This document shows, in pieces, positions 1 through 25,152 of a stretch of DNA of 64,000 nt. Every line of letters begins with the position of its first letter. Within the stretch, counting starts at the first letter, position 1. The notes under the pieces were generated by a model. The model worked only from the letters and a program-made list of their open reading frames with translations. It had not been told where the DNA came from and did no database searches. Position numbers and translations under genes: made by a program. This DNA comes from Candidatus Poseidoniaceae archaeon (GTDB lineage Archaea > Thermoplasmatota > Poseidoniia > Poseidoniales > Poseidoniaceae): the NCBI GenBank assembly GCA_949372875.1, contig CASIAW010000001.1, positions 310,001 to 374,000 on the forward strand, read 5' to 3'.

Positions 1-3000
1 TGATCGTCTTACTTCCTTCAACAAAGTCTTCAGGAGCAAATGCCGTGAACATTTGAGAACGGCTGTCACCCTTAGCGATGTTAATGATTGATTGAGGTGG
101 TGTTACTTCCCAGCCAGCTGGTATATTGTCGGCTAATTCGATGGTGAAAGAGTCATCACCGTTTCCGATGTTAACCAGTTCGAAACCAAAGGAACTACTT
201 CCACCAGACCCAATACCGATTTCGGTTGGGACGTCGTTGAATTCAAACCCGTAGATTTGAGGAACTTGGACCTTCATAGCAATTTCACTGGATGGTGTCC
301 CGTCATTAATCAAACGAACCTTCAGCGAGTGAGGATCTTCTAAGTGCCATGCATCGGATTGATTAGCAACCAAAATTCGAACACGAACTACCGCAGATGA
401 AGCAATACTGGTATCTGAGGAACCATTACCAATTCCAAGTGAAACTTCATGAGATTCAACAAAGTCAGTTCCATTCCAGAATTCAATACTCCATTCTGCT
501 TCATCAGGCGCTACTCCGATTTGTCCGAGAACATCAAACACTTGCACCGTCTCAGTACCCTCGTATTGGATGTTCAAATCCAATTCGATGGCTTGGTAGC
601 CTTCATCTTCAGGTATTGCAAGGTATGCAAGATTTGAATCGTCTTCAACTGTAGCATTGACAATGCTGTTTTCAACGATTGTTATCACTGTATCAGAATT
701 GATGGTTCGTGTGTAAGAAAGGGCTACGGGTGAACGTCCTTCAGCAACAAGAGTAACTGCGCCACCGATGTAATCCATTTCGAGATTCAAATCGTGTTGA
801 ATCGTTACAAAGGATGAATCCATTTCGATTTCGTCTGCAGGCATCAAGATGCTAATACTTCCATCACTGCCTACTGGTATGTCCCATTCAAGGTCTGAAC
901 CAATAGCAAATGTGATCGATACTGATTCGTTAAGCATGGATGAACCATTACCTGATGAACCAGCATGGTGCTCTTCGAGATTGATGTCTGTCCAAGAGGT
1001 CGTGAGGTCAATCCAACCACCGAGAGACATCTCAAGGTCGAGAGTTGCACCATCTGAAATACTTGCATCAAGTAATCCAACTGCAACACCGCCACCGTTC
1101 TCGCCAGCATTGGCTTCTGTTACTACAACAATCCACTCGCCTGGCGCAATAACTGCGGACCAGGTAAGTTGGTCATTTGCAAATACTGAAGTCACTGTTT
1201 GCATTTCTCCTGCCATTCCAGTGGATGGGTAAAGAACCACGGTAGAGCCGTTCAATCGACTCGCATCGTTAATGTCAGTGACGTTACCGGACACGGAAAC
1301 GTTACCGGCAGTAACTTCAATGTCATGTGATTCAGGTTCCGAATAGACTGGGTATGCACTTGAGTTCGAAACATTATACACTTCTGTGCTAAATCCTTCT
1401 TTGCTCACACTGACTTGATATTCATCCTGTATAGGGACAAAGAGTGACCAAACACCGAACTCATCGGTTGTCACATTCGTGTCAATCTCAGAATTATTCA
1501 TTCCAAGAATCGTAACCGTAATGTTTTGGACACCTTCTGTGCCACCTGGAAGGTCATCATCGTTCAAGTCCCAGAATACTTTCCCACCGATTTCGACTTC
1601 CAATTCAGCATAGTATACGCCCAAGTCAAGAACGCCATCAACTGCAGATGCAGTCGAGAATGGTGAAGCAGAAGTGTCGAGGGTCCAGTGACGTTGAGGG
1701 GCTGTTTCGTTGAGGAACAAGCTCCAGTTTCCTGGCATCAACTGTTCGGTGACATTACCATTCAAGTCTGACTTTGGAAGAGTAACGTTACCATAACCAT
1801 CGTGGCTGACAAGCGTGACTCGTATGTCAGACATATTCGATTCAGTGTTCAATTCTTGCAATTGGAAACTCATTTCGACAACGTCAAAAGACATCAATTC
1901 GAGGTTTGTTCGGACAGACGAATCGTTACCAACGCTGAATGGGTAACGGAGTGTCTCGGTGCTATCGTTGTCTGCGAGGAATGGAGCGATGATGGCAACC
2001 CAATCTCCAGCAGGAACATAGGAGGAGAACGTTCCATTGACATCAGAAGCCATGTTGAACCACAGGTCATCAGCTTCGTTACGAAGTAGGAATTGCTTCT
2101 CAACTGCACCACCACTGGAGTTGGTTATTTCTCCTGAAACCAAGTAGTCGTTTCGTAGCGTAAATGCTACAGCTTCTTCGTAGGCATCAAGTCCGACTAA
2201 AATTGGATCAAACACATTTGCTCCAATAAGCGCATAATCTGAAGCATTTTCATCGGAGGCATCCGTAGAGTTCAGAACAAGGCTGTAAAGTCCCGGTTCA
2301 AGAACAACTGTGATGTTTCCAACAGAAGTGTAGTCAAGAGAGGTGTAATTGTGTTGTTTCCCATGACTATTGAGTGGCATGAGAGAGAACGAAGGGCTAA
2401 CTGCAGTTCCGTTCGCAAATACTCCATCGCTTCCTGCATCCATGAAGATGTTGAGTTCTATGGTAACATACTCGGGGTAAACAAACAATTCGACAGGAGT
2501 AGGTGGGGTGTCGACGTCAATCACAATATTATAATTCTCAACATCTGTTGAATTCAACTTCTCTTCATCGACGGAGAAGTCCCATTCTCCTTCCTGTAAG
2601 TAGAATACAAACTCTCCGGAATCGAGGATTACCGAAACCCATTCAAGACCATCACTATCCGTTGCTACAACACTTTGGGAACTGTCGTAACCTGGAACAA
2701 GGCCATCCCACAGGGATGAATTGTCGTAAAGGAATACAAATCCAGTAACACTTGTCGTTGGTTCCAAATACATGAGGCCAAGGTCAATCTCGGCATCTCC
2801 AGTAAGTTCAATCAGTTGACCTCCCGACATTTGGGACGCAATACTAAATGTCGTCATATGGAAGTCATTGCCACTTGGCAAGCGAATACTATAGTTTCCA
2901 TCTGTTTCGACTGTTGTCGAGAATGATAAGTCATTCGAGATGAAATTAATATCCAAACCTGCTGCAGGTTGACTCTGTTCGAGTTTAACATCTGCTCCTT

Positions 3001-6000
3001 CAGCCGCCCAAACGGAGTAGTTCAGGTCATTGTTGAATATTCCACCGTCAACAACACGAATGCTGCCGTTCACCCAAGTACCAATTGCATAGGCACTTGA
3101 AAGACTCAAGTCTTCATTTTCGAGCGATACGTGATCAAACAAGATGTATTCGTCTCCAGCTTCATCAGAAATTGTGTATGCACCCATTGGCAGTTCAATG
3201 TAGACCAGACCGTTTTCATCAGATGTTGCGTTAAGCGGACCGAACAATGGATCCTCGTTGGTAAAGGTCACAATTCGTCCTGCAACGTCTGTGTAAGCAT
3301 CCTGTGTAAGTGGATCGACTGGTGAGGTGAGTTGCAATGTGATATCATGCATCTCTGGAATATCCATCAGCAATGTAAAGTTCTCTGATGCATCTCGAAC
3401 TGTGAATGTTTCATTGAGTTCATACCAGCCATCTCCGTCGACGTCGACGCGATAATAGTATTCACCAGCAGCAAGTGGACCCTCGGAAAAGTTTCCAAAT
3501 TCATCTGTCGTGATTTCTGTTACTGCTGAAAGTCCCAAATCAACATCAACAAGTTCGAAGGTTTCGTTTGCAAAGGCAACTTCATAGAAGTCTTGAAGGG
3601 TATCTTCAAAGATGGAACCCGGCATAGTCATTTGCAAATCATATGAAGGAGAAATATCCACATTCACCGGATCAGGAAGAAGAACTTCCTTTCCGTTATC
3701 AAGTTGAGCAATCATGTTGTAAACTCCAGGAATAAGCCCCGTGATGTAGAATGAACCGGGCTGAACCATTGGCCCAGAGAATTCTCCAGTTCCAATGAAG
3801 AGTCCAGTTCCGTTCAGTGTACCAATACCCTCAAAGGAGCCTGTAGCCTCAAACGAGTCGCCAACGTGCTCAGTAACGAGAGTTGAGATTCCATCAGAGG
3901 TCAGACGTCCATTTGCTTCTATTTCTCCATCCAAAAGATAGATGAGCGGTGATGCTGTAGAATCTTGGAGACAAAGTGAGGCATTTTCTGGCATTGGAGC
4001 AGTTTCATTGTCGAGACATGAAACGACACTTTCGTTCGAGACCCATGATGCTGCAAGTGTTCCCTTGCCGTTCCATGTTCCGTTACTTGTGTAGACACGA
4101 CTGTCAGCGATTGAACGAGTGAACGTTCCTGTGAAGTCATCTGCAAAGGCAACACCGTCGCTCTCAAAGGTTCCATTTTCGGTGAATGTCACTTCACCGG
4201 TTCCTTGGAGGATTCGGCTATCTTCAGATGTGAATGAACCATTGGTCGTAGTCAGTGTGTAATTTTCCGTCATTGACCAGATATTTCGCAGAATAAAGTC
4301 GGTGCTAACCAAAGCATCGCCATCGAATGATTCGTGACCAGCCCAGGTAACTTGTCCTGAAACACCACTGCTTTCTACAGCGATATCGAATGGAATGGAA
4401 ACTTCAACAAATCGATCGGCTTGTTGTGCGGTAATGTTGTGTTGGTATTCACCAAGCCAACTCATGTTTGCAACTTGTCCGAGAACCGCTGTAATATCAT
4501 TCACTTGACGGTCATCGTTTGTGACGGTCAAGATATCACCTAAACCTTGTGAATAGCCTCCAGAGCGGATATTATCTTGAGCTGCTATTGGGTTATAATC
4601 ACCCGCAAATGCACTCACACGAATACGTCCTGCTGGAGCGTCAAAAGACCATTCGCCGTTCTCATCAGCGTCTGTATATCCGATTGGCACCCAATAGGTG
4701 TCAGGGTCAAGGTCTTCTGTGCCTTCGCCAGAGAATGCATCTCGCTCGATAAGCAATCGAACGCCAGGCAACCCCTGGCCGTTATCGCTCATTGTAACTT
4801 GACCCGAGATTTCTGCTCCCGAGTAGTACTTGAGAATCTTGACAAGTGTGTTTGTTGATGCAATTCCAGAAGATTGTTGTTCTGCAGTTACAGAACTATT
4901 GTCTTCGGGGGTATACCAATTTGCGATGACAAAGTGATTTTGCATTGCACCTGGTAGTGGGAGCGCTTGGCCCAATATGCTACCTGGACTTCCGGATTGT
5001 CCGAAATGTTGTGCCGGTTGAGGATTTGAAGAACCTGCATCGACGCCAAGTGAAGAGGCACCGTATCCGACATAAGCTCGTGCAAGCATAGTATCGAAGA
5101 ATGCAGCATTGTGATCTACCCGAACATCTTCCACTTGTAATGGGTCAATGTCCGAACCAGATTGCTGGTTCAGGAAATCTTCCGTAATTGCTCGGTCGAC
5201 TTCTTCTCGAGTCATCTCATCTGGGAATTCTCCACGCATTGTTTCGTAGACTTCATCCATGTAAGTGGAAATATCTTGGCCACTCAAAATGGTAGGTGCG
5301 CCAAAGATACCCATTGGTTGACCTTGATTGTAATTCATATCTTGAGTGTAACGTCCTGCACGAGGATACAATCGGTTGTCGATAGCGAAGTATCGAATTT
5401 CGTGATCACGTTCAACAATTTCTCCTGGAGCACCGTCGTAGTCTTGGACTTTGTAATATCCTTCAAGATTAATCAAATCATCATACATATCGATAATTTG
5501 TTCAGAGTCAAGTGTCAGCGAGAGTAACTGAACTGTCAATGAAAGACGCGTGTTCTTACGGTGAATGTTCGTCCCAACAGAATCATACTCTTCGATGAGG
5601 TCAGCAGTATACCAATAATCACCGATGATGTAATGTGTTGTGTCATACACATTGTCAGCACCTGTACGAATGTTGTTTGTGAAAGTACGATTTGCTTCAA
5701 ACAATTCAGACCAGTCACCATCAACGCAGGTTGCAGAGAGTGAATCAGTACAGATTATACGTTCGCCATCATCATATACTCGCCAGTAGGGAGTCGATTG
5801 GTCAAACACACCATTTGTTTGGTGATAGCCAACCGCTAAGACGACATCGTCGTTTGTTTGGAACACTTCAAAACTGTTGAGTTCAGCAAGTGCAATCATT
5901 TCATCATGGTCAACACTTGTTGACATGGTGGTGAAGAGATCCATTTGTGCATCATTCAGGTAAGAATCAACGATGTTGCTGTATCCTGAGGTGAAAGCTG

Positions 6001-9000
6001 TATCACCTGTTCGAGCCTGATTGTATTCAATATCTCCTTGACCAAGTTGCCAAATAAACATTGAAACCAAATCTTCTTGGCTTCTGGCGAGTAACATGTT
6101 TCCAGTTGCAGGAATTCCGGACTGGAAGTTATCTGAAACTGACGGGTGCTCTCCTGTATCAAGTGCTTGGAAACCATAGTCCCACCATGAGACGAAAGCA
6201 GGACGTTCAGAGTATGCCATGTCAGTATCTTGATTCGCAAGCCACTCATAAGCAGTATTCCAGCCGTTATCATTGAATCCGGAACCAAAAGATCCGAGAT
6301 ACCAATTCCCGTCATAGGTGCTGTCATCGAGGAATGAAAAACCACCAACTTCCCAACGGAAAGCGTCAGGAATGATATTGTAGATTGTTTCATCGATGTC
6401 ATCTTCCGCATTGTTACTACCCGGAATAGCAGCATCCAGACCGTAAGTAAATTGTTGTCCAAACAACATAATCATGACAAGCATGATTGCCGAGAAAGAT
6501 GGTGTTCGCCAAACGGCAACACGTGCACCACGGATACGGTCTTCAGGTGAACGAATACCGAGTTTCTTCCAAGTCTTGACAAGACCTCCCCAATTGGCCC
6601 ACTTCCAGAGTGAAACAATACCCCAAGCACCGAGAACGGCAATTGCAGGTGTTGCGTTGAACATAAATCGAGCAGCAGTCCAAGCCATGAAGGATGCAGC
6701 GAGAATCCAAACACCGAATACGAGGTTCGTTTGCTTGCGCTTTCGTAGAGCCGACCAGATGCAAAGAACACCCATGATAAGTGATAAGACAAAGGTGATT
6801 GGGCCGAATTGAGCAAAGAGTTGTCCTCTGTTTGGTGCGTTTGCTTCAGCAACTGTTCCGAAAATCTTGGTCTTTGTGAAGTATCCGCTACCAGTGAACA
6901 ATACGTCCCATGCATTGGAAATGTTTGCTTGCTTGAGTAGCCACAATGCCAAGAAGAAGACAGCACCTGCAGTCACAAGAACACCCAAGATGAGCAACCA
7001 AGGCTTGTCACGGAATCCAGTTGTTACAAAGCTGATAGCCAGTGTGAACACGAAGATAAACAAGAATGGTTGCAATCCAGTTCCATCCAGAATCAAATTA
7101 ATTTGAGGATGACCATAGAATGGAAGAGCCATCAAGAAATTAACACTAAGCATGGTCAAGAACAGAACATTGAGAGTTGTCGAATCTCGACGGCGGAACA
7201 TGTTAATTGAAACCTGAGCCGCATAAGCCAAGAAGAGAATCGAAGGCCCAACGACGAAACCTTTCCAGCCAAGAGAGACAACACCGAAACTTACACCGGC
7301 CAATACAGCAGATGAAAAGGCGGCCTTTCGTTGAGATATAACCGCTGAGATTGCAGCGATAAAGGCTGCTGGTGTAGCCGAAGAAGAGCGAATCAAACGC
7401 TCTGTTCCTGCATACTTCACAGCCCGAAGCCAGAACATGAATCCAAGAGTGATGAACAGCATGATGAATGCGTCGTGGTCAGCCAGAGCCCATGTTGAGT
7501 GGCTCACGTGAGCCGGCATGAAAGCGATAAGCCATGCTGCAATGACTGCAGCTTTTGCGTTAACGTGTTCACGAGCAATAGCAGCAACAGGGAAAATCGT
7601 AAGGGCCCCGTAAATAGCAGGGAGGGACAAAATAGCCCACCAAACTGCATCTCCGTTTGCGAAGAATGGTTCCAAAATCAGAGCAAGGACAGCAATAGAC
7701 CAAGTAAAGATTGGAGGTCGAGGATTGATTCCACCAACTGGATAGAAGCGGTCAGCGTCAACAATCATGTGTGCATTATTTGCAAGAATGTAGTCGACAA
7801 CACGCTTCATGTACCACGGGTCAGAACCGCCAGTCATGTCCCAGTTTCCGGTTCCGTATGCGTTCATTGAAGGAACGAGATACCACTGAGTTCGAATGAC
7901 TAAACCAAAGAAGAAAGCCAAACCAATCATGACGCTTGCCCAGTGTTGATTCCAAAACAACCGAGCGCCAGAGTATTCGTGATCTTCACGGTTTACCCAT
8001 CCGCCCCACGAATCGTGAGTGGAAATGGAATAAATTCCAACGCCGATGAAGAATGTAGCGCCGAGCCAAATGAGGCTGCCCCAGTTACCATTCAACATCT
8101 CGATAGAGAACATTCCAGCATCATACCAAGTAGAAACTTGATACAATGTCCAAAGAGAACCAAGTGTCATGGCACGTGTGTGCCATCGCTCGGAAAACAT
8201 ACCTGCTACAATCAGAGCCACCATTCCGGTAAAGAAAGCAGACCAGTAACTGAAGTAGCCATGGTATCCATCAACTGTGTTAATTCCAAGTTGATCCGCA
8301 ACTGCAACGCTATCGAAGTGCCACAGACTGCCAATATGGGCGAGTGCCCAAACTACGAGAGCAACCTGTAATGGAAGGTTCTTTTTATTGATGACAGATG
8401 TTGTGTCGTCATTCAAGAAACCAAACCAACCTTCTTTTCCGACGGGGGTCAAAATGCCCCGTGTGAATGTGGCGAAAAGAGTGCCAAGAAGGATAAACAG
8501 GGTGAGGTATGAAAAGAATTGATACCCAACTGCTTGGTGCTTCAAGTTCAAAGTCGATACGAAACTTGCTTGTTCTTCGGCGCCTGCCAAGTTGTAAATC
8601 TCAGGAAGATTCGCTAAAGCGTCCCCTGCCATGATGATTCCAATATTGATTCCAACCGCTGCAAAGATGACGATTGATGCAATCTCGTGTCGTCCTCGAC
8701 CGTTCATGAAATGAACGCCGAAGGTAACAAGAGCAAACATGAGTGCTGTGAAAGCACCGTAATCTTGCCAGTAAATGATTTCTGCACCGATGAGAGCAAC
8801 GGCCAGAGTTGAGAGGGAAAGGGTGGCCTTTGAAATGGATGAAGATTCGGATTGGTTGAGCATCGACGGAAGAAGTCCGAAGATACTTGCGACGATGACG
8901 AAAATCATCGGCGTCATGTTGTCTACATTGAGCTCGAAGTCTACGCCGACGAGCTTGATGGCTGCGATTGCTAGCAGGACTGCAAGGGGGGCAATAAGCC

Positions 9001-9052
9001 ATCCGAGCGGTGCTGCTGGCGCAGTGCTGTGTGTGCCAGTTTTCTGTTCCAT
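1..9052 (-). CDS. aglB: Giant AglB/STT3-type oligosaccharyltransferase, 3' end outside window
   Basis: Catalytic subunit of archaeal N-glycosylation, moving a lipid-linked glycan to Asn in N-x-S/T sites on the outer membrane face. The ATG is at 9052 and the frame stays open for 3017 codons to the window edge. Residues 1 to about 365 form roughly ten membrane segments that precede the usual STT3 fold. The STT3 core then shows the first acidic motif (SDPWY, Asp 411), the second (DHD, residues 525-527) and the signature WWDYG at 956-960. The two acidic motifs are 114 residues apart, a normal spacing for the family. Beyond about residue 1400 there are only beta-rich repeats: carboxypeptidase-regulatory-like units near 1417, 1774 and 2587, an SdrD-B-like unit near 2494, and a NEW3-like domain near 2940-3017. 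N-x-S/T sites are frequent in this tail. Ordinary AglB is about 600 to 1000 residues. The enzyme call is firm; the function of both extensions is unknown. Confidence 0.92.
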   Translation of the reverse strand, partial: MEQKTGTHSTAPAAPLGWLIAPLAVLLAIAAIKLVGVDFELNVDNMTPMIFVIVASIFGLLPSMLNQSESSSISKATLSLSTLAVALIGAEIIYWQDYGAFTALMFALVTFGVHFMNGRGRHEIASIVIFAAVGINIGIIMAGDALANLPEIYNLAGAEEQASFVSTLNLKHQAVGYQFFSYLTLFILLGTLFATFTRGILTPVGKEGWFGFLNDDTTSVINKKNLPLQVALVVWALAHIGSLWHFDSVAVADQLGINTVDGYHGYFSYWSAFFTGMVALIVAGMFSERWHTRAMTLGSLWTLYQVSTWYDAGMFSIEMLNGNWGSLIWLGATFFIGVGIYSISTHDSWGGWVNREDHEYSGARLFWNQHWASVMIGLAFFFGLVIRTQWYLVPSMNAYGTGNWDMTGGSDPWYMKRVVDYILANNAHMIVDADRFYPVGGINPRPPIFTWSIAVLALILEPFFANGDAVWWAILSLPAIYGALTIFPVAAIAREHVNAKAAVIAAWLIAFMPAHVSHSTWALADHDAFIMLFITLGFMFWLRAVKYAGTERLIRSSSATPAAFIAAISAVISQRKAAFSSAVLAGVSFGVVSLGWKGFVVGPSILFLAYAAQVSINMFRRRDSTTLNVLFLTMLSVNFLMALPFYGHPQINLILDGTGLQPFLFIFVFTLAISFVTTGFRDKPWLLILGVLVTAGAVFFLALWLLKQANISNAWDVLFTGSGYFTKTKIFGTVAEANAPNRGQLFAQFGPITFVLSLIMGVLCIWSALRKRKQTNLVFGVWILAASFMAWTAARFMFNATPAIAVLGAWGIVSLWKWANWGGLVKTWKKLGIRSPEDRIRGARVAVWRTPSFSAIMLVMIMLFGQQFTYGLDAAIPGSNNAEDDIDETIYNIIPDAFRWEVGGFSFLDDSTYDGNWYLGSFGSGFNDNGWNTAYEWLANQDTDMAYSERPAFVSWWDYGFQALDTGEHPSVSDNFQSGIPATGNMLLARSQEDLVSMFIWQLGQGDIEYNQARTGDTAFTSGYSNIVDSYLNDAQMDLFTTMSTSVDHDEMIALAELNSFEVFQTNDDVVLAVGYHQTNGVFDQSTPYWRVYDDGERIICTDSLSATCVDGDWSELFEANRTFTNNIRTGADNVYDTTHYIIGDYWYTADLIEEYDSVGTNIHRKNTRLSLTVQLLSLTLDSEQIIDMYDDLINLEGYYKVQDYDGAPGEIVERDHEIRYFAIDNRLYPRAGRYTQDMNYNQGQPMGIFGAPTILSGQDISTYMDEVYETMRGEFPDEMTREEVDRAITEDFLNQQSGSDIDPLQVEDVRVDHNAAFFDTMLARAYVGYGASSLGVDAGSSNPQPAQHFGQSGSPGSILGQALPLPGAMQNHFVIANWYTPEDNSSVTAEQQSSGIASTNTLVKILKYYSGAEISGQVTMSDNGQGLPGVRLLIERDAFSGEGTEDLDPDTYWVPIGYTDADENGEWSFDAPAGRIRVSAFAGDYNPIAAQDNIRSGGYSQGLGDILTVTNDDRQVNDITAVLGQVANMSWLGEYQHNITAQQADRFVEVSIPFDIAVESSGVSGQVTWAGHESFDGDALVSTDFILRNIWSMTENYTLTTTNGSFTSEDSRILQGTGEVTFTENGTFESDGVAFADDFTGTFTRSIADSRVYTSNGTWNGKGTLAASWVSNESVVSCLDNETAPMPENASLCLQDSTASPLIYLLDGEIEANGRLTSDGISTLVTEHVGDSFEATGSFEGIGTLNGTGLFIGTGEFSGPMVQPGSFYITGLIPGVYNMIAQLDNGKEVLLPDPVNVDISPSYDLQMTMPGSIFEDTLQDFYEVAFANETFELVDVDLGLSAVTEITTDEFGNFSEGPLAAGEYYYRVDVDGDGWYELNETFTVRDASENFTLLMDIPEMHDITLQLTSPVDPLTQDAYTDVAGRIVTFTNEDPLFGPLNATSDENGLVYIELPMGAYTISDEAGDEYILFDHVSLENEDLSLSSAYAIGTWVNGSIRVVDGGIFNNDLNYSVWAAEGADVKLEQSQPAAGLDINFISNDLSFSTTVETDGNYSIRLPSGNDFHMTTFSIASQMSGGQLIELTGDAEIDLGLMYLEPTTSVTGFVFLYDNSSLWDGLVPGYDSSQSVVATDSDGLEWVSVILDSGEFVFYLQEGEWDFSVDEEKLNSTDVENYNIVIDVDTPPTPVELFVYPEYVTIELNIFMDAGSDGVFANGTAVSPSFSLMPLNSHGKQHNYTSLDYTSVGNITVVLEPGLYSLVLNSTDASDENASDYALIGANVFDPILVGLDAYEEAVAFTLRNDYLVSGEITNSSGGAVEKQFLLRNEADDLWFNMASDVNGTFSSYVPAGDWVAIIAPFLADNDSTETLRYPFSVGNDSSVRTNLELMSFDVVEMSFQLQELNTESNMSDIRVTLVSHDGYGNVTLPKSDLNGNVTEQLMPGNWSLFLNETAPQRHWTLDTSASPFSTASAVDGVLDLGVYYAELEVEIGGKVFWDLNDDDLPGGTEGVQNITVTILGMNNSEIDTNVTTDEFGVWSLFVPIQDEYQVSVSKEGFSTEVYNVSNSSAYPVYSEPESHDIEVTAGNVSVSGNVTDINDASRLNGSTVVLYPSTGMAGEMQTVTSVFANDQLTWSAVIAPGEWIVVVTEANAGENGGGVAVGLLDASISDGATLDLEMSLGGWIDLTTSWTDINLEEHHAGSSGNGSSMLNESVSITFAIGSDLEWDIPVGSDGSISILMPADEIEMDSSFVTIQHDLNLEMDYIGGAVTLVAEGRSPVALSYTRTINSDTVITIVENSIVNATVEDDSNLAYLAIPEDEGYQAIELDLNIQYEGTETVQVFDVLGQIGVAPDEAEWSIEFWNGTDFVESHEVSLGIGNGSSDTSIASSAVVRVRILVANQSDAWHLEDPHSLKVRLINDGTPSSEIAMKVQVPQIYGFEFNDVPTEIGIGSGGSSSFGFELVNIGNGDDSFTIELADNIPAGWEVTPPQSIINIAKGDSRSQMFTAFAPEDFVEGSKTI

Positions 9053-9177
9053 TTTTTATCCCTCAAAGGTGTTTGCGCGACAGCAGCAAGGCTGAAGCGT
9101 CTTCGCCACTTGAGAGCCTCTTTTAATGACTCCGCTGTATGAACAACATATGAAAGCAACGCTGTGTCGCATTTAAT

Positions 9178-9194
9178 GGGGTGAATTAAACCCC
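9178..9194. other. Short inverted repeat between purD and aglB
   Basis: A perfect 5-base stem (GGGGT / ACCCC) flanks a 7-base loop, with a T run following on the plus strand only. Both neighbouring genes run on the minus strand, so it is badly oriented for a terminator. It may be part of the aglB leader or incidental. No clear TATA box was recognised in 9053-9220. Confidence 0.25.
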
Positions 9195-9220
9195 TTTTTC
9201 GGGCAGGAATAAGGCCGTAT

Positions 9221-10501
9221 TCAAGGGGTTGAAAGGGCACGAAAAGCGATGTCACCACGGTAGTGTGAACCATCCAATTCGATTGATTCTATCAATTCGT
9301 AAGCGAGTTTGACAGAAGCCTCCAGAGTAGGCCCCGAAGCACTGCAAGAAAGCACTCTTCCGCCGGTTGAAATGAGTTGGCCTTGCTCGTCAAAACCCGT
9401 CCCAGCATGATTCACCCAAGCAGAAACACCATCCGATTGAATTGGTTCTAACGACCCTTGAATTGGTCGACCTTTGACAGGAGATTCAGGATAGCCTTCT
9501 GCTGCGAGAACAACAGTTGCAGTAAACATGTCATGGAATTGGACATCGATTTCTGCTAGGCGATCGCTGGATGCAGCTGCAAGGACTTCATACAGATCTG
9601 TCTTCAAAAGTGGGAGGGTAATTTGACATTCAGGGTCTCCAAAACGAACGTTAAATTCAACCACATTGGGTCGACCTGAATCCGGAATCATGAGACCAAC
9701 ATACAGCACGCCACGGTACGGAGTTCCGGTGGAGAGCAGATAATCGTGCATCGGTTTGATTATTGTCTCTACAGTTCTTTGATGGACAATGTCTGAAACG
9801 ACAGGTGCTGGGCAGTAAGCGCCCATTCCGCCTGTATTCGGGCCTTTATCACCATCATATGCTCGCTTGTGATCTTGGCTTGCAGGTAAGCAAACAAACC
9901 CTGAACCATCCATAATGACCAACATGCTTGCTTCTTCCCCTGGTAGAAAATCCTCGAGTAATACTTGCCCATCTTTTTCGATTGATGATTGAATAAAAGA
10001 ATACGCTTCCGTCCTATCTTTGGTAACGACCACTCCTTTCCCACCGGCAAGTACGTCTCGCTTAACAACCCAAGGATGGCCTGAGAAGTCATCCAGTGCA
10101 GCATCGATATCGCTTCCTTTAGAGAGGACATGGAACGGTGCTGTAGGGACATTTGCTGCACGCATGACTTGTTTGGCGTGTAATTTTGAGCCTTCCAGGT
10201 TGGCGAGTTTGGAAACCGGTCCGAAGCATGGGACTTTCATCTGCTCAAGCCTGTCAGCAAGTGCAGCACATAAGGGAGCCTCAGGTCCAACAACCACGAG
10301 ATCAGCATTGATGTTTTTGGTGAGGTCCAACAGACCTTCAATATCGCTTGCGGAGATAGGATGGTTTGTCGCTAGAGAAGAAGTTCCTGCATTGCCTGGC
10401 GCACAGTGGAGTTCAGTTACGTGCTTGGACCGACTCAGTTCCATGCACAGCGCATGCTCACGCCCACCTCCACCAACAACGAGAACAACTTTCTCTGCCA
10501 T
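9221..10501 (-). CDS. purD: Phosphoribosylamine-glycine ligase
   Basis: PurD (GAR synthetase) joins glycine to phosphoribosylamine using ATP, the second step of purine synthesis in the cytoplasm. The 426-residue length is normal. The N-terminal domain opens with a glycine-rich turn and GREHAL (residues 10-18). The ATP-grasp region has the glycine-rich KGVVV loop, and the C-terminal part carries the conserved FNVRFGDPE metal-binding stretch. The ATG start at 10501 is the first in frame. The gene is divergent from carS and upstream of aglB on the same strand. Other purine genes (purE, guaAb) lie 20 kb away, so the pathway is scattered rather than clustered. Confidence 0.96.
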   Translation of the reverse strand: MAEKVVLVVGGGGREHALCMELSRSKHVTELHCAPGNAGTSSLATNHPISASDIEGLLDLTKNINADLVVVGPEAPLCAALADRLEQMKVPCFGPVSKLANLEGSKLHAKQVMRAANVPTAPFHVLSKGSDIDAALDDFSGHPWVVKRDVLAGGKGVVVTKDRTEAYSFIQSSIEKDGQVLLEDFLPGEEASMLVIMDGSGFVCLPASQDHKRAYDGDKGPNTGGMGAYCPAPVVSDIVHQRTVETIIKPMHDYLLSTGTPYRGVLYVGLMIPDSGRPNVVEFNVRFGDPECQITLPLLKTDLYEVLAAASSDRLAEIDVQFHDMFTATVVLAAEGYPESPVKGRPIQGSLEPIQSDGVSAWVNHAGTGFDEQGQLISTGGRVLSCSASGPTLEASVKLAYELIESIELDGSHYRGDIAFRALSTP

Positions 10502-10630
10502 AGTGTGCTTTGGTCGACGCCATCACATAATCCCATCGCGTCTGCATTCAGACAGTTCGCCCTCTCACCTCGTTTCAAAGGGGATGCTTCAAAGACCGTC
10601 TCCCTAGCCACGAGTTATAGGAATGAACCT

Positions 10631-11296
10631 ATGGTGAGTGAAATGAATTTTCTCGGACTCTGTTTGCTAACCCTTTGGCTTTACTTACCTGGATTTTTAG
10701 CCAACACGTTTGCGATGATGTGGGGTAAATGGCTACCAAAGACAGGATATGGACCCTGGCCGATAGATGGGGGGAGGACGCTCAGTGATGGAAAGAGAAT
10801 CCTTGGCGATGGAAAAACATGGAATGGCTTGATAGGCGGTTCACTCACCTCAGGCGTTCTAAGCATGCTGATTGTAGCGTCACTGGGAGAGATTCCTTCT
10901 GCAAATGCTGCTATCGGAGAAAGTGGGATATTCGCACACCCGTTACAGGGAGCAGAAGGTGCTTGGTTTTCCATTGGCGGGGATATGCTCACAGCATTTA
11001 TCCTCGGTAGTTTCCTCGGTTTCTTTTGTCTTGTGGGTGACAGCACTGGCTCTTTTGTCAAGCGTAGAAGAGGCCTTAAACGAGAAGGTGACATCTCATC
11101 GAAAGCACCACTGCTGGATACACTTCCATTTGCCATTATGGTATTCTTAGCAGGCCAAATCTTTCTGGGAACCTCAATTCTCGCCGACTCAGAATTGATA
11201 CTGCCCATGGTGGCACTGGTTGTTTTCACACCCGTCTTGCATCGATCATTCAATCTGCTTGGATACAAGATTGGATGGAAAGACGTCCCATATTGA
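10631..11296 (+). CDS. carS: CDP-archaeol synthase
   Basis: CarS (DUF46 family) transfers CMP from CTP to digeranylgeranylglyceryl phosphate, activating archaeal ether lipid for head-group addition in the membrane. The protein has 221 residues with several hydrophobic segments. It carries the family signature: a Pro-Ile-Asp-Gly-Gly turn at 44-48, DGKR at 53-56 and GDGKTW at 59-64. The start is set at the ATG at 10631. The frame stays open further upstream, but that part overlaps the divergent purD start and does not look like the family. An ATG four codons later is a second option. This gene is the clearest single marker that the genome is archaeal. Confidence 0.92.
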   Translation: MVSEMNFLGLCLLTLWLYLPGFLANTFAMMWGKWLPKTGYGPWPIDGGRTLSDGKRILGDGKTWNGLIGGSLTSGVLSMLIVASLGEIPSANAAIGESGIFAHPLQGAEGAWFSIGGDMLTAFILGSFLGFFCLVGDSTGSFVKRRRGLKREGDISSKAPLLDTLPFAIMVFLAGQIFLGTSILADSELILPMVALVVFTPVLHRSFNLLGYKIGWKDVPY

Positions 11297-11330
11297 ATTC
11301 GGAGAGAAGCCTATAATGTGGGCTCATTCT

Positions 11331-11336
11331 AGAGGT
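11331..11336 (+). promoter_or_regulatory. Ribosome binding site (AGAGGT), with TATA-like box upstream
   Basis: AGAGGT lies 4 bases before the ATG at 11341. A TATA-like CTATAATG sits at 11311-11318. With the usual archaeal spacing the transcript would start at or just before the ATG, so the box and the ribosome binding site compete as explanations. Confidence 0.35.
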
Positions 11337-11340
11337 ATAC

Positions 11341-12987
11341 ATGCGAACCGCTGTCTGCTTTACTCTTCTCCTGATTCTAACATCGATGAGCGCTCTTTCG
11401 GGCGTTCATGCTGAGCCTCCAACAAACGGTGAAAATACGCTCATTAATGCCGATGAAACGTGGAGTGGGAGCCACGCCATGAACGGTGATGTCATTGTTA
11501 AAAACGGTTCAACTTTAACTATTGAAGGGGACGTTACCGTCGCCACAAACAGCCATATCACTGTGGAAGAGGGAGCTTCGCTCTCATTAACTGGTTCACT
11601 CATCGGTGAAGAACTCGATTCGGGACTTGTAATATTGAACGACACCCAACTGCACTTGAATTTTGGCGATTTGGCTGAAAACGGACAATTGCGAGTCGAT
11701 TTTGACCAAACGATTCCTTCTTCGGCAATATTCAACATGACTATTGGAGAGGAAACAAGCGATGCTGCCGGACAGGACCACATATTCATTGATGTGCCTT
11801 TGGATGGAACTGACTTGGTTGCCAATTTCAATATATATTATGCTTTTGAAATTCAAATTATATCAATCCAAGCACTTCACACAGGAAGTGCACAATCGCC
11901 AATACTTCTTGCCAGTGAATTGAATCAAACGAATGCAAGCCTCGTTTGGAACAGTGCTTCGTTTGAACTCGAAGTATTCGGGACTCTACTCCTCAATGAT
12001 GCAACAATCTATGGGGCAGACTTGACCTGTCACCATGTCTGCTCAGTTGAATCAAGCACCTTAATCGGAAGTGCACCAATCAATGTAAATGATGCAGCAA
12101 GTATCGTTGTAAATTCCAGTTCAATTCTTGGAAGTCGCACAGATGAAGACATCATTGTCCATGACCTTGCTGAAATTATCTACACGGATAACCAAGGCAC
12201 TGGAGGATATACCGATGGTTGGATTCGTTTGCTTTCTCAACGCCAAATCCAAACCAATTCCGCCAACATTACAGTTCACCAAACTGGAATTGGCTATGGC
12301 AATTCAACTCGAGACGACATAACCAATTCAAACGGAGTCATCGATATCGGTGGTAGTGAATGGAAGAGGATTGTCGAGTGGGTTGACCAAAACGGAGTCT
12401 ATCATGCTGAAGAAGGTGAATTGACGTTAACACTCAGTTCGGGATGGGGTAATTTTGCCACAACAGTTCCTGCACCACATTCGCCAACTGCAGTCATCAA
12501 TGTCCCATTACCATACATCGAAGTGGTTTCCATAGATGCTGAAGATACAACAGCTGAAGTGAATAAAAAGATTGGTGCAATGGTTACTGTGCGAAATACC
12601 GGCACTGCTGCAGCAACCGTCAACATCTGGTGTTATGTCGGTCAGAACCTTACTGAAACCACTGCTTTGACGACCTCTTTAGTGCCCGGTGAGGAAAAAG
12701 AATTGCCTGTCTCTTGGTGGGCAAACACGGATGGGGGTCAAATTCTCAACTGCCGAACACTTATTCCGAACATATTGACTTCAATCGCTGACGATATTAC
12801 CAATGTCGAAGGCGGAAATTCTCAAGAAGTCGGATGGTATATCGGTGAAGAGACCGAGGATCAACCGTTCATCATCTATGGAGTCCTTGTCATACTCATT
12901 GTCTGTGGAAGCGTTATCGTAGCCCGAAACGCAGCCAAAAGAATCTCAGACAGTGATGTCGCAGAAGTCTTTGAAGATGATGCTTAA
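11341..12987 (+). CDS. Secreted, C-terminally anchored surface protein
   Basis: The 548-residue protein has a clear signal peptide (about residues 1-25, ending in VHA). A Gly/Asn-rich repetitive stretch (about 30-90) follows, with the rhythm of right-handed beta-helix or polymer-forming domains. The middle is beta-rich, and a CARDB-like adhesion domain lies at about 385-480, opening with an AEVNKKIGAMVTVRNTG-type strand pair. A single transmembrane helix near 517-535 precedes a short basic-then-acidic tail. The protein would therefore be anchored in the membrane with its bulk outside the cell. Many N-x-S/T sites make it a plausible AglB substrate. The specific function is unknown. Confidence 0.75.
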   Translation: MRTAVCFTLLLILTSMSALSGVHAEPPTNGENTLINADETWSGSHAMNGDVIVKNGSTLTIEGDVTVATNSHITVEEGASLSLTGSLIGEELDSGLVILNDTQLHLNFGDLAENGQLRVDFDQTIPSSAIFNMTIGEETSDAAGQDHIFIDVPLDGTDLVANFNIYYAFEIQIISIQALHTGSAQSPILLASELNQTNASLVWNSASFELEVFGTLLLNDATIYGADLTCHHVCSVESSTLIGSAPINVNDAASIVVNSSSILGSRTDEDIIVHDLAEIIYTDNQGTGGYTDGWIRLLSQRQIQTNSANITVHQTGIGYGNSTRDDITNSNGVIDIGGSEWKRIVEWVDQNGVYHAEEGELTLTLSSGWGNFATTVPAPHSPTAVINVPLPYIEVVSIDAEDTTAEVNKKIGAMVTVRNTGTAAATVNIWCYVGQNLTETTALTTSLVPGEEKELPVSWWANTDGGQILNCRTLIPNILTSIADDITNVEGGNSQEVGWYIGEETEDQPFIIYGVLVILIVCGSVIVARNAAKRISDSDVAEVFEDDA

Positions 12988-20235: not shown

Positions 20236-23200
20236 ATGAATGCCGTCCTTCGCTCCCTCTGCCTCGCAGTCCTCATGATTATGTCGACGACCGTACCCTT
20301 CGCCGTTTCTTCGCTCGAACAAACTTCTGTTGCGTCGGAAACCTCCAGCCGCTCACTGGCGTGCACAGGTGATATTTGCCTCAATGAAGCATTACCGAAT
20401 CCAAATGGATACGATGATGCAGCATGGCCTGGAGGCGAATGGATGGAAATTCACAATTCAGGAAACTCAACGGTTGATGTCCGTGATTGGTATCTTACGA
20501 ATAAAGCATCAAAGACACTTTACTTCAATTCAACATCAATTGTAGATTATGATGCAGCGGATTCAACCAGTTGGGAAATTGAGCCCGATGAATACATGGT
20601 CATCGCACGTAATGGAGTCTCAAGTTCGATATTCTATCTGGCAAACACCAACGACATCATCACCCTATTTGACGCAAACGGCGTACAACTTGATCAAGCA
20701 ACTTGGACCTTCTCGTCATCTGGCTCACCCTCCGGCTCAAGTCTTGAAGAAGACAGCATGAGTGCAACAAATGATTGGGTTGCAACCAGTGGACCGTCAC
20801 CCGGAGCAATCAATTCTGGCGGTTCTACAGTAGGGCCTACAGTCTACCCATCTGATTTGGTGATCAATGAAGTAATGTCCAATCCTTGGCCTTCGTATGA
20901 CAATGCAACATGGCCCGGTGGAGAATGGGTGGAGGTCTTCAATTCGGGAATGGACGCCATGGAATTGACTGGATGGTCACTTCAAGATGCTGCAGGAAAT
21001 ATTCTTGAATTCGATGCCAATCACTTGGTAGGTTTTACTTCTGATGCGAACTCTACCATCATTCAACCGGGGGATACACGGATTATTGCCGTTAATGGCT
21101 CGGGAAGTTCTGGCGTACTGAATAATGGCGTCGAAACACTGTCATTGTATTGGCCAAATGGTACTCAAGCGCAACACATTTCCTGGACAGATACTGAGGC
21201 TGGATTTTCGCTTGTTGAAAGCACGACTTCACAATACTGGGGCTATGCCGCTTACCCGACACCAAATGCAAGTAATCCCCTTGACTTTACTGTGATTGCT
21301 GCAACCCCTTCTCCGATTGAATTGGCAGAACTGTTATCGAACAGTAGTTCTGATGGCACGGATTTCCCTGATGGCGAATGGATTGAATTACTCAATACTG
21401 GAACCTCAACTGTTGATTTATCGGGATGGTCGATTATCGATGGAATGGGTAATGTGACGTATCTGGACCCAGGTTCGTTGGTCTTCAACCAAACGCAAGG
21501 CTCGACTTCCATCGATGCGGAAGAGCGAAGACTCGTCCAATTCAATTCAGATACCGAACTGTGGGACTATTACAATCAACTTATGCTCCGTGACGCATCA
21601 GGAATGGTTGTTGACACGGCCTGGTATACCACAGATTATGGCGAGAATATCTCCTTAATCCCTGCCGAAAATGATGCGGACCCGTGGGTGCCGTCAACTT
21701 GGATGACGCCGGGTCAGCCGGACCCAGTCGAAACTCCTTCAACTGGACTGGTTATTTTCACAGAAGTATTTCCTGATGCAGTTGGAAGCGATTCACAACA
21801 GTGGCCGTTAGGTGAATGGTTAGAAGTCTACAACAACGGAACCATGGCCTTGGATGTTGGAGGATGGAAGTTACAATCCGCTGGACGTTCTTTGACGCTC
21901 CACCAATTCAACATGCCCTTGCAGTCCACCTCGGTGATTCAACCAGGTGAAGTTGCTCTCATTGCGCTCAACGGAACAACAAGTTTCTACCTCAAGCACA
22001 CAACTCCAGACTCAATTGTTCTCATCGATGCCAACAGTAACACGGTCGATTCGGTGTCTTGGGTATCAACGGTCGAAGGAGAATCATTGATTCCCTCAAA
22101 CAGCACTCATGCTGGTGCAGGACCGGATGGCACCGGTGCTTCGAACAGTTCTGACTGGATTCAATCCGCCTGGGCTACTCCTGGAGAAATCAATCCAGTT
22201 TGGCCTGCTTACTCTGGCTCTCATGAACTCACTCTTACTGAAATTTTAGCATACTGTGACGATGATTCAGTCAATCCCGTTGAAGACTGGATTGAAGTGA
22301 TGAACACGGGTGATGAAGACATCAACATGAGCCGCTGGAGAATTGATTCCGATGATGGCGACCGAAGATTCCTCAGAACCTCCTCGATGTGGAACATGAG
22401 TACTGACACCATGATGCTCGCACCTCAAGAGCGAGCAGTATTCCTCATGGACGACGACATCATATCTGGTTTAGGAGACCAGTTGGTACTTTCGGATCCT
22501 GACGGAACACCTGTCCAAACAGCTCAATGGAACATCGTAAGTGATTGTCAAACAATGGGTCCAGGAGAGGCAGAAACCGATGGATGGCAATTGCTCCTTT
22601 GGCCAACTCCAGGAGCAGAAGAGCCTGATGCGGCTATGTTTGCTGAGGCACAAGACATCGTCTTTAGCCGCTTCATGCCAGAAGGTTCTACTGATATTTC
22701 GAGCAATACGGAATTCCTTGAAATCACAAATATCGGAGACTCACTTGCTTACATGAACGGATGGACATTGACACTGATCAATTCAGCGAATGATGCCACA
22801 GATTATTCTTTTGGAGATGTGGCAATTCCCTCGAACAGTTCCGTTCTTCTCGCATCAGATCCGAGCGGTCTATCTGTGTATGAAGATGGCACAATCCTTG
22901 GATTTGATTCGGCTATGACCACTTCTGGCTTCACACTTCCAGATTCTGGTGCAACCCTCCAAATCTCTACTCCAGCAGGCGTTCTTGCGGACACTGTCGC
23001 CTATGGAAATGGGCCAGTTGAAATCGAAGGATGGAGTGGAATCAGTTTGGTCGAACCTGTATCGAGTATTGCCCTTCTCGTCTACCATCGTGGAGACGGG
23101 TGTGGAAATTTACCAGACACAGACTTGGCACTTGATTGGCAACACCGTTGGGGACGCTTAGGTGCAAGCACATTCTGCGGACCGACTCTTTTCTCTGGAA

Positions 23201-25152
23201 CAAGTACAGTCACACCTCTCATCGGCCCCCAAAGTGGGCTCGTAGACTTGGTGGCATGGATTGACAATGCCAGTGAATCATTGCATGTCCATCTTTACCA
23301 AATCGAACAACCGAATCTTGTTCAAGCACTCGTAGAAGCTCACAACCGAGGTGTTGAAGTCACTGTGGTTCTGAACTATGCTGAATACTGGTGGAACAGT
23401 TATGACAAGAACAACCAAATCGGAACAGCGAATTATTTGGCTACTGCAGGCGTCAGTACTTTTTGGTTCGGTGGACAGAACGATGAGCCATACACATACC
23501 TCCACAGTAAGGTAGCGGTCAAAGATGAACAAAGCGTATGGATTGGTTCAGGTAACTGGAAGAGTTCTTCTCAACCTGCTCCTGATGAACGAGGTAACTC
23601 CGAATGGGGTGTACTTGTTGATAACGTCGACTTCGCTCAGAAAGTGATGGCACAACTTGCCTATGATGAATCTGCAAGTCGAACTTACATTACGCAAGTC
23701 GCACCAGGTTCTGGCCCGTCCGACTGGACAATGGATTCTCTTCGATCTTTGGTCAACGGTTCATTCGCTCAACCAATTACGACAGATGTCTCCGGCCGAC
23801 TTCTCACCTGTCCCGACACATGTGTCGATGGATTGGTATGGATGATTGAGCAGGCTGATGAAGAAATTCTGTTGTCATTGCAATACCTCGACGTTGACTG
23901 GAGCTGGGGATGGGGAGATAATCCGATTGTCTCGGCGCTTGAAGACGCTGCTCAAAACGGCATTCGTATCCGTTTGATTTTGAACGGCGCATACCTGGAC
24001 AAAGATATCCAAGAAGTCGTGGACACCTTTAACGAAGAATGGAACACAACACTCGGCTACGACATCAATGCCATTGTCATGAGCGAAGATGATGAAGTTT
24101 CCAAACTTCACAACAAGGGAGTTATTGTTGACGAAGAGCATGTTCTCATATCCTCAATCAACTGGGGTGATTCTGCAACCACACGAAATCGTGAGATGGG
24201 ACTTATTCTTACCAGTGCTGAAGTTACGGCTCCATTCCTAGCAGGCTGGGACAGAGACTGGGTTCGTACCGACAATGTCACCGATACCGATAACGATGGC
24301 CTTCCAGACTATTGGGAAGTCGCCAATGGCCTCAATAGAACGACTCGTACACTCGGTAGTTTGAATCTGCTTGAAGGCGAGCATGATGCTGATGGTGATG
24401 GCTTGACCAATGAGCTGGAATACATATTCGGAAGTCATGCGACAAATGCAGACACCGATGGTGATTGCATTCCAGATGCTGTTGAAGTCTCATGGGCCCA
24501 ATCGACTGCTCTTGACTCAGAAATAGCTGATGTATCACCGACAGCAGCACTTACACTTGCTGATGCAGACGGAGATGGTGTTAACGAATCAGAAGCACTT
24601 GGTTGCGACCTTGGCGGAATCTTTGTCGACGACGATCAAACTGTCATCGATAATGGCTCATTGGATGATGATGGAGACATGGTAGTCAACAGAGACGATA
24701 CATGCCCCAACACGGCCGCCAATATACCTGTAGACTTCAATGGATGTTCAACTGAGCAGAGGAATTCCAATTCGACCCCAAGTGCCGATACAAGTTCTAA
24801 TTTAGGTACTGGAATGATGCTTTTCTTCATGCTTGGTGGAATTGCTTTAGCCGGTGGTGCATACATGATTCTTCGAAACATTGAGTCTGAAGGCGAGGAA
24901 GTGAAGGATTTGATTACCATTGAAAGCGAAAATCTAGCCGCTCTCGCCAACGGGGATGTGAACAATGATAATTGGCAAATGCCGGTTCTTGACAGTAGCG
25001 GAGACGAAGCAAAGCCTACTGGACTATCACCCGAGGATTTAGCTCGCTGTCCAGGATGGCCTGAAGAAACGATTCAAAAATATCTCGACCAAGGATGGCC
25101 GATTGATGAACTGGCCGCATACTACCAAGAACAAGTCGACCAACACTCTTGA
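20236..25152 (+). CDS. Surface protein: six lamin-tail domains, two phospholipase D motifs, calcium repeats
   Basis: This is a 1638-residue membrane-anchored exoprotein. It has a signal peptide (1-25). Six lamin-tail (LTD) domains start near residues 50, 207, 361, 505, 666 and 808; each has an acidic INE-type first strand, a GEW(I/V/L)E motif and a late W. A phospholipase D-like enzyme unit (about 980-1340) follows, with two HxK(x)4D motifs at His 1090 and His 1292, each followed by an SGNW or SINW signature. Five DxDGD calcium loops lie at about 1350-1500, a membrane helix at about 1524-1546 and a cytoplasmic tail rich in W/E/Q. The start is supported by GGTGA just before the ATG. Two complete HKD motifs argue for an active nuclease or phospholipase outside the cell. 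LTD domains may bind DNA, membranes or the cell wall. Substrate unknown. Confidence 0.88.
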   Translation: MNAVLRSLCLAVLMIMSTTVPFAVSSLEQTSVASETSSRSLACTGDICLNEALPNPNGYDDAAWPGGEWMEIHNSGNSTVDVRDWYLTNKASKTLYFNSTSIVDYDAADSTSWEIEPDEYMVIARNGVSSSIFYLANTNDIITLFDANGVQLDQATWTFSSSGSPSGSSLEEDSMSATNDWVATSGPSPGAINSGGSTVGPTVYPSDLVINEVMSNPWPSYDNATWPGGEWVEVFNSGMDAMELTGWSLQDAAGNILEFDANHLVGFTSDANSTIIQPGDTRIIAVNGSGSSGVLNNGVETLSLYWPNGTQAQHISWTDTEAGFSLVESTTSQYWGYAAYPTPNASNPLDFTVIAATPSPIELAELLSNSSSDGTDFPDGEWIELLNTGTSTVDLSGWSIIDGMGNVTYLDPGSLVFNQTQGSTSIDAEERRLVQFNSDTELWDYYNQLMLRDASGMVVDTAWYTTDYGENISLIPAENDADPWVPSTWMTPGQPDPVETPSTGLVIFTEVFPDAVGSDSQQWPLGEWLEVYNNGTMALDVGGWKLQSAGRSLTLHQFNMPLQSTSVIQPGEVALIALNGTTSFYLKHTTPDSIVLIDANSNTVDSVSWVSTVEGESLIPSNSTHAGAGPDGTGASNSSDWIQSAWATPGEINPVWPAYSGSHELTLTEILAYCDDDSVNPVEDWIEVMNTGDEDINMSRWRIDSDDGDRRFLRTSSMWNMSTDTMMLAPQERAVFLMDDDIISGLGDQLVLSDPDGTPVQTAQWNIVSDCQTMGPGEAETDGWQLLLWPTPGAEEPDAAMFAEAQDIVFSRFMPEGSTDISSNTEFLEITNIGDSLAYMNGWTLTLINSANDATDYSFGDVAIPSNSSVLLASDPSGLSVYEDGTILGFDSAMTTSGFTLPDSGATLQISTPAGVLADTVAYGNGPVEIEGWSGISLVEPVSSIALLVYHRGDGCGNLPDTDLALDWQHRWGRLGASTFCGPTLFSGTSTVTPLIGPQSGLVDLVAWIDNASESLHVHLYQIEQPNLVQALVEAHNRGVEVTVVLNYAEYWWNSYDKNNQIGTANYLATAGVSTFWFGGQNDEPYTYLHSKVAVKDEQSVWIGSGNWKSSSQPAPDERGNSEWGVLVDNVDFAQKVMAQLAYDESASRTYITQVAPGSGPSDWTMDSLRSLVNGSFAQPITTDVSGRLLTCPDTCVDGLVWMIEQADEEILLSLQYLDVDWSWGWGDNPIVSALEDAAQNGIRIRLILNGAYLDKDIQEVVDTFNEEWNTTLGYDINAIVMSEDDEVSKLHNKGVIVDEEHVLISSINWGDSATTRNREMGLILTSAEVTAPFLAGWDRDWVRTDNVTDTDNDGLPDYWEVANGLNRTTRTLGSLNLLEGEHDADGDGLTNELEYIFGSHATNADTDGDCIPDAVEVSWAQSTALDSEIADVSPTAALTLADADGDGVNESEALGCDLGGIFVDDDQTVIDNGSLDDDGDMVVNRDDTCPNTAANIPVDFNGCSTEQRNSNSTPSADTSSNLGTGMMLFFMLGGIALAGGAYMILRNIESEGEEVKDLITIESENLAALANGDVNNDNWQMPVLDSSGDEAKPTGLSPEDLARCPGWPEETIQKYLDQGWPIDELAAYYQEQVDQHS

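Follow-up and report, generated by a model that had tools for sequence, protein, structure and literature searches.

The window analysed here is a stretch of 64,000 nucleotides (C1:310001-374000), and its left end is occupied by a giant aglB gene on the minus strand (window 2..9052). This part encodes residues 1-3017 of 3196 in 3017 open codons with zero internal stops, and 539 nt more lie beyond the left window edge. The original prediction had described a frame of at least 3017 residues that is open to the left and had proposed to extend the contig in that direction; the stop is indeed reached 539 nt further on, at C1:309462-309464. The complete gene (L032:6463-16053, minus strand) measures 9591 nt and encodes a single protein of 3196 residues. 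In 3196 random codons of the same composition, ca 169 stops would be expected. Tandem DNA repeats were looked for in window positions 1-12000, and none were found.

Just left of the window, on the same strand, are an S8 subtilase for which one membrane helix is predicted (L032:5156-6385) and a 1511-residue beta-helix surface protein (L032:585-5120). In both Poseidoniales families, loci that extend far enough show the same succession of genes, purD - aglB - subtilase - surface protein. Of 20 Poseidoniales loci (L032-L051), all contain purD, 19 contain the subtilase and 12 the surface protein; the loci lacking one of the latter two end before or just after the expected place. Further into the window (20236-25149, plus strand) there is a 1638-residue acidic surface-like protein, which shows a modest excess of sequons (25 vs 16.8).

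The genome is 94.87% complete and has a single STT3 match, the giant AglB being the only STT3-type oligosaccharyltransferase found in it. The Candidatus Poseidoniales are placed within Thermoplasmatota by NCBI. Among the best 80 of 535 named Poseidoniales loci, the closest are those of Euryarchaeota archaeon UBA91 and Candidatus Poseidoniales AG-333-I22 (96% in the core), and several other near loci are titled Candidatus Poseidoniaceae. We infer that our family f1 corresponds to the Poseidoniaceae and f2 to the other Poseidoniales family. A search of viral contigs for AglB relatives gave none that could be confirmed.

Catalytic core and N-terminal block

The STT3 membrane core comprises residues 366-900 (window 6353..7957, minus strand, the end being approximate) and is recognised by both a profile match and a fold match. 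Both DXD motifs, TIXE and WWDYG, as defined in the available sections of PMC8342417, are present in the expected order on the minus strand, and all were checked letter by letter: GSD 409-411 with D411 (7820..7828), DHD 525-527 (7472..7480), TVAE 733-736 (6845..6856) and WWDYG 956-960 (6173..6187). The original prediction of a giant AglB fusion with a complete STT3 core is thus borne out at D411, DHD and WWDYG, to which the TVAE motif can be added. The DK/MI motif is described as difficult to place in the A. fulgidus enzyme AfAglB-L (PMC3703281, available part).

PF02516 matches residues 408-670 with 55.3 bits, well above the cut-off of 24.5. The model for the archaeosortase A-associated AglB, TIGR04154, gives 168.2 bits on residues 375-993, below its cut-off of 450, which places the protein outside that group. 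We have also built an AlphaFold2 model of residues 1-1185, with alignment rows taken from the loci in the list of relatives. The model is weak (pLDDT 60, pTM 0.40), and the top PDB matches found for it by Foldseek are 7e9s (A. fulgidus AglB) and 3wak, with an E-value of 1.2e-6 and TM-scores by target of 0.41-0.42 for this low-confidence model; they indicate an AglB fold, and eukaryotic STT3 is also among the best PDB matches. Hydropathy gives 16 segments ahead of WWDYG, the extra N-terminal block included, where 13 helices are expected for the core; the 1-1185 model is weak. Judged by its sequence, the protein is an AglB/STT3-type oligosaccharyltransferase.

Ahead of the core lies an extra membrane block, residues 1-365 (window 7958..9052, minus strand), with ten long predicted helices and no known relative found. 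The ca 365 residues of additional membrane helices noted originally are reproduced by AlphaFold2 as ten long helices in residues 1-344, the last part having low confidence. The block is present in 20 of 20 Poseidoniales proteins chosen for their long frames (WWDYG at 937-980). Over the block, the window protein shares 18-28% identity with eight proteins from the second Poseidoniales family. Searches against Pfam and the PDB gave no credible match. Compared with eight other families, the block appears to be confined to Poseidoniales, no homologous block being seen in those eight (hhalign probability <1%). Two other options considered, namely that it is a duplicated core or a block common to the eight families, were rejected at the same hhalign probability of <1%. 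As a guess, the block is a candidate binding site for the lipid-linked glycan or for the translocon.

Architecture of the tail

After the core follow an extracellular core domain and a first post-core module, residues 901-1450 (window 4703..6352, minus strand), where the sequence from ca residue 1160 aligns with short AglBs as well. The tail proper, counted here from residue 1451, runs to residue 3017 inside the window (2..4702, minus strand) and continues outside it as a chain of Ig/prealbumin-like beta-sandwiches. In an AlphaFold2 model of residues 1186-2380 (pLDDT 76, pTM 0.40), which is mostly beta, this chain starts at ca 1410. Foldseek matches this model best to PDB entries of bacterial surface proteins and pilins that carry Ig or prealbumin-like domains; the lowest E-value is 7.7e-11, and the whole-length TM-scores are low. 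Profile self-comparison reveals internal repeats, such as 1845-1962 with 2332-2446 (probability 96). On this prediction, Ig/prealbumin-like domains make up ca 1700 residues on the outer side of the cell, and at ca 100 residues per domain there would be some 15 of them.

A CarboxypepD_reg domain is matched by Pfam at residues 2506-2562 (window 1367..1537, minus strand), where NOMO1-like_9th and SdrD_B also match, both below their cut-offs. A choice-of-anchor-T-like region at 2920-3031 (2920-3017 in the window, 2..295, minus strand) reaches 32.5 bits, below the cut-off of 70. The C-terminal end has a hydrophobic stretch near 3177, followed by RLARSRSSSSRF, so that the tail is predicted to close with a membrane helix and a basic end. 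STT3 and one CarboxypepD_reg are the only domains above the Pfam cut-offs, and the architecture is therefore easy to overlook. The C-terminal helix is one of three features that had not been part of the original prediction, the others being the co-linear tails across much of Thermoplasmatota and the apparent limitation of the N-terminal block to Poseidoniales.

The dN/dS ratio is 0.02-0.11 along the whole length of AglB (five pairs in six segments, three of the 30 values not being computable), and these values are rough because dS exceeds 1 wherever it could be computed. They suggest, as a rough estimate, purifying selection over the full length.

Distribution among relatives

It is important to consider whether the giant frame could be an artefact of assembly or gene calling, in which AglB has been fused with a second gene. 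Both ends of the frame lie within the contig in 55 of the best 80 (from 535) named GTDB loci of Poseidoniales. Four of the 55 (L098, L136, L146 and L162) are broken, as such an artefact might lead one to expect; some of the 55 also hold unread bases, and L117 ends oddly too. However, the other 51 encode 3145-3321 residues, which answers the earlier call to compare AglB lengths across Poseidoniales. The join is identical in both Poseidoniales families, and 19 further families share it without the N-terminal block. Moreover, the tails are co-linear in all 17 non-Poseidoniales families tested. The AglB of L142, which we take to be a single-cell genome, is complete with 3190 residues. The artefact has a negligible probability and is refuted for the AglB family as a whole, in line with the original view that the fusion is not an assembly error.

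An STT3 match was obtained in 56 of 59 relatives, the own genome counted, with 33 of the 56 matched frames exceeding 3000 residues; in the class the figure is 268 of 292 genomes and in the phylum 329 of 389. When 60 proteins were picked across the phylum, 43 of them, from 21 families, were 2073-3305 residues long, and the long AglBs of the 19 Thermoplasmatota families besides Poseidoniales have 2073-2740 residues. The statement that ordinary AglB enzymes are three to five times shorter therefore holds against textbook enzymes, such as the one of A. fulgidus with 868 residues (PMC3703281, available part), but not against many relatives in the same phylum. A hydrophobic C-terminal helix is present in 42 of 42 complete long AglBs and in 0 of 16 complete short ones. 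Nine groups were compared, and the co-linear span amounts to 1287-1612 columns in eight of them and to 749 in f24; as an example, the Poseidoniales tail aligns with those of six families with an E-value of 1.8e-67 over 1388 columns.

On the core tree, the length of AglB changes at least two times. The AU test does not reject a tree in which all long tails form one clade (p-AU 0.234), and an origin of the long tails as several clades was accordingly set aside. L088, which ends at a contig edge, was kept outside the length counts and the change count, and was placed with the long rows in the p-AU test.

Another option considered was that the tail is a separate gene in related genomes, which would have spoken against the fusion. 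No such case was found, and the option was rejected on the basis of contig-edge fragments and of the matches in genomes with short AglBs. The tail is present in 11 of 20 listed (of 24) class genomes lacking an STT3 match, and in all five of these 11 that were fetched the frame runs off the contig end, which also speaks against an artefact. Among 15 genomes with short AglBs, the sequence matching the tail best belongs to the first post-core module of AglB itself in 12 cases, to a second copy of STT3 in two (both f15), and to a different protein in G315. With three other long proteins fetched from short-AglB genomes, the match to the tail does not exceed 384 columns and is not in register. Two f15 genomes each encode a further STT3-like protein of ca 1130 residues (L205:4964-8425, minus strand, and L206:2085-5489, plus strand).

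Sequon content of the tail

Residues 1451-3160 contain 49 N-x-S/T sequons, 48 of them inside the window, compared with 16.6 after shuffling (z 8.5). The reversed motif occurs 12 times (16.7 shuffled), and three stretches of residues 1-1450 have no sequon excess. The final sequons are located at 2860, 2876, 2897 and 3089, so both membrane-near ends of the tail are sparse. On average, a sequon is kept in the same column by 61% of 57 relatives; for those at 1529, 1539, 1657, 1690, 2269 and 2422 the share reaches at least 98% of the relatives that have a residue in the column.

One can ask whether this excess simply follows from turn chemistry or base composition, as a by-product, with the tail being unglycosylated. 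NG turns are common in beta-sandwiches, and N-G-S/T is over-represented in the tail of the window protein (11 vs 1.6); over 43 long tails, D-G-S/T is mildly raised as well (119 vs 77). However, the excess persists for sequons other than those with x=G (38 vs 15.7), and the window protein shows none for D-x-S/T (26 vs 24.5), N-x-x-S/T (18 vs 18.1) or the reversed motif, which makes the by-product explanation very improbable. Q-x-S/T (9 vs 8.5), G-x-S/T and N-P-S/T show no excess in this tail either. Summed over the 43 long tails, N-x-S/T occurs 1548 times vs 636, and D-x-S/T 856 times vs 802; sequons exceed the shuffled mean in 43 of 43 tails and the reversed motif in 42 of 43.

Outside the order the excess can be small, as in f48_G515 (16 vs 15.0, reversed motif 21), f3_G072 (16 vs 12.8), f42_G475 (14 vs 10.4) and f54_G539 (12 vs 8.4). 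The AglB tails of L059 and L060 (f13 and f20), the latter ending at the contig edge, have 94 and 93 sequons per 1347 residues (z 17 and 13.7). A 2265-residue surface-like protein with a C-terminal helix and 122 sequons is encoded in a short-AglB genome (L204:3251-10084, minus strand).

We have also ranked 275 genes of at least 200 residues in 471 kb of the own genome by their sequon excess, using simple rules of our own for gene finding and for the surface class. AglB, scored as residues 1001-3160 where the others were scored whole, is ranked first (51 vs 19.7, z 8.6), and the next gene has a z of 4.1; scored whole, AglB is still above it (53 vs 25.1, z 6.5). The 46 surface-like genes have 404 sequons vs 329.5 (ratio 1.23) and the other 228 genes 403 vs 391.3. 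Since other surface proteins are also somewhat enriched, with z up to 4.1, the tail could be one acceptor among several.

The tail might instead anchor the enzyme in the surface layer or form part of it, a tethering role suggested originally. It is an acidic, beta-rich chain resembling surface proteins, two S-layer proteins are among the weaker Foldseek matches of 1186-2380 (ranks 25 and 46), and the subtilase and the 1511-residue surface protein follow downstream of aglB. However, no S-layer domain is among the matches listed, sequons are not enriched in the surface protein next to aglB (15 vs 17.5), and the tail ends in a membrane helix and not in an obvious lattice domain. The tethering proposal thus finds no support, and we assign this explanation little probability.

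Resemblance to NOMO

A further possibility is that the tail serves chiefly to handle nascent or acceptor proteins, as an arm comparable to NOMO at the multipass translocon of eukaryotes, and that its glycans are only protective. We made a profile of seven tails drawn from six other Thermoplasmatota families (f30, f38, f49, f53, f45 and f42), and its best match among 177,635 distinct PDB sequences is NOMO2 (E 2.7e-24), followed by SdrD (2.9e-10). NOMO_5th exceeds the Pfam cut-off, as a whole-protein score, in two of eight related AglBs scanned (L057 and L059). In 243 genomes, six of seven NOMO_5th matches and ten of 19 NOMO1-like_9th matches, five of the latter in f1, fall in AglB-family frames, as assigned by comparing places, with five frames checked. 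CarboxypepD_reg, by contrast, is also found in many other genes among the matches listed for the seven NOMO_5th genomes, which have 9 to 112 such matches each; the 112 belong to genome G450 (f39). NOMO carries a single C-terminal helix, and tandem prealbumin-like outer domains with one such helix are found in the window protein by prediction. Prealbumin-like domains occur in NOMO too, and these domains and archaeal TRAP relatives are described in the available part of PMC11186639, which names no archaeal NOMO; the word NOMO is absent from the main text of PMC11417166.

These observations have to be weighed against several others. The per-domain scores are alike, with best i-values of 7.6e-6 for NOMO2 and 4.4e-6 for SdrD, so the summed NOMO2 score partly reflects the number of domains. 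As single matches in the 243 genomes, none of the NOMO_5th and one of the NOMO1-like_9th matches reach the cut-off, and the window protein, with 20.3 bits for NOMO1-like_9th vs a cut-off of 27, lies outside the NOMO domain models. With alignments A3 and A4 of Poseidoniaceae tails as queries, no PDB sequence came up at E-values of 1 or below, and NOMO is absent among the best 50 of 1072 Foldseek matches of 1186-2380. Also, the tail is fused to STT3 and is not a stand-alone protein bound to Nicalin and TMEM147.

Given that single-domain scores do not separate NOMO from SdrD and that the fold search with the window protein's own tail has no NOMO among its best 50 matches, we keep the NOMO likeness of the tails in relatives as a lead that is not proven. 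A tail that serves mainly as a NOMO-like arm is, in our view, a doubtful but serious alternative. We consider it unlikely that the tail is a true NOMO relative, making the protein a natural STT3-NOMO-like fusion in which the arm is glycosylated by the attached enzyme and itself takes care of nascent membrane or surface proteins; in that case, N-glycosylation and the multipass translocon would have been linked before eukaryotes arose. One AglB-family protein with a NOMO_5th match (G423, L177:1308-7655, minus strand; 2116 residues, with 31.5% identity to the f30 protein along its entire length) is without WWDYG and T[IV]AE and is perhaps catalytically altered.

Proposed self-glycosylation

We now return to the preferred reading, in which AglB acts on its own tail. 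The single chain would comprise the ca ten extra helices, the catalytic membrane core, the globular domain, the outer tail of ca 1700 residues and the C-terminal membrane helix. The enzyme part would be inserted and folded first, and the tail would then be threaded out beside the folded enzyme and receive glycans from it, either in cis or between neighbouring AglBs. The outcome would be an arm coated with glycans and fixed in the membrane by its two ends, which would protect the enzyme and keep acceptors close to it by holding or crowding them.

Because the catalytic part precedes the tail, the enzyme can already be in position as its tail threads out. There is also a precedent, in that AfAglB cross-linked to a sequon peptide acts on this peptide intramolecularly (PMC8342417, available sections). 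Together, these two points make self-glycosylation likely, in cis or in trans, and with a tail this unusually rich in sequons the enzyme probably coats its own arm. Among the original suggestions for the tail, glycosylation by the enzyme itself is the best supported, by a sequon-specific excess that concerns predicted sites and not glycans. Substrate scaffolding by the tail is possible, the NOMO-like resemblance in relatives being the one observation behind it. For the whole reading, that is, a one-chain oligosaccharyltransferase that glycosylates its own membrane-pinned arm, with the arm shielding the enzyme and holding or crowding acceptors, we estimate a probability of roughly 60%. We are less sure about the role of the coated arm, which may be shielding, acceptor crowding or the handling of nascent proteins.

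An oligosaccharyltransferase that brings along an acceptor arm so densely set with sequons would add a new architecture to N-glycosylation, present in an abundant group of marine archaea and also, as a shorter chain, in 19 other families of the phylum. It makes two questions testable: does an oligosaccharyltransferase glycosylate itself during its synthesis, and can the NOMO arm of the translocon in eukaryotes be traced back to archaea?

Comparison with known systems

In the available text of the open-licence literature on AglB, Poseidoniales, NOMO and self-glycosylation, this architecture is not described; the available parts of PMC7505659, PMC5898192 and PMC12153357 contain nothing on a giant AglB. 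An oligosaccharyltransferase is mentioned among the highly transcribed genes of a Poseidoniales MAG (PMC9723583, available part).

SdrD, CNA-B and pilin surface proteins have similar tandem Ig or prealbumin-like domains, as reflected in the Foldseek matches, but they are without an attached enzyme and do not return to the membrane through a catalytic partner. NOMO, a subunit of the BOS complex in the ER multipass translocon, has prealbumin-like domains in a row and is the best PDB match of the seven related tails, but it is a separate protein without STT3, and the window protein is below the NOMO1-like_9th cut-off. The other long AglBs of Thermoplasmatota (2073-2740 residues) share the co-linear tail, the C-terminal helix and, in most cases, the sequon excess; they differ by having no homologous N-terminal block (eight families compared), shorter tails and more recognisable CarboxypepD_reg domains.

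AfAglB-L, finally, has the same STT3 core, both DXD motifs, TIXE and WWDYG, and provides the best fold match (7e9s). Even the spacing of the DXD motifs is equal, 114 residues, from 47 to 161 in AfAglB-L and from 411 to 525 in the window protein. The latter is, however, 3.7 times longer, with ca 365 residues before the shared part and ca 1700 beta-sandwich residues and a C-terminal membrane helix after it. The kind of enzyme, AglB/STT3, is thus known, while the giant one-chain form with a sequon-rich arm, common to Poseidoniales, appears to be new.
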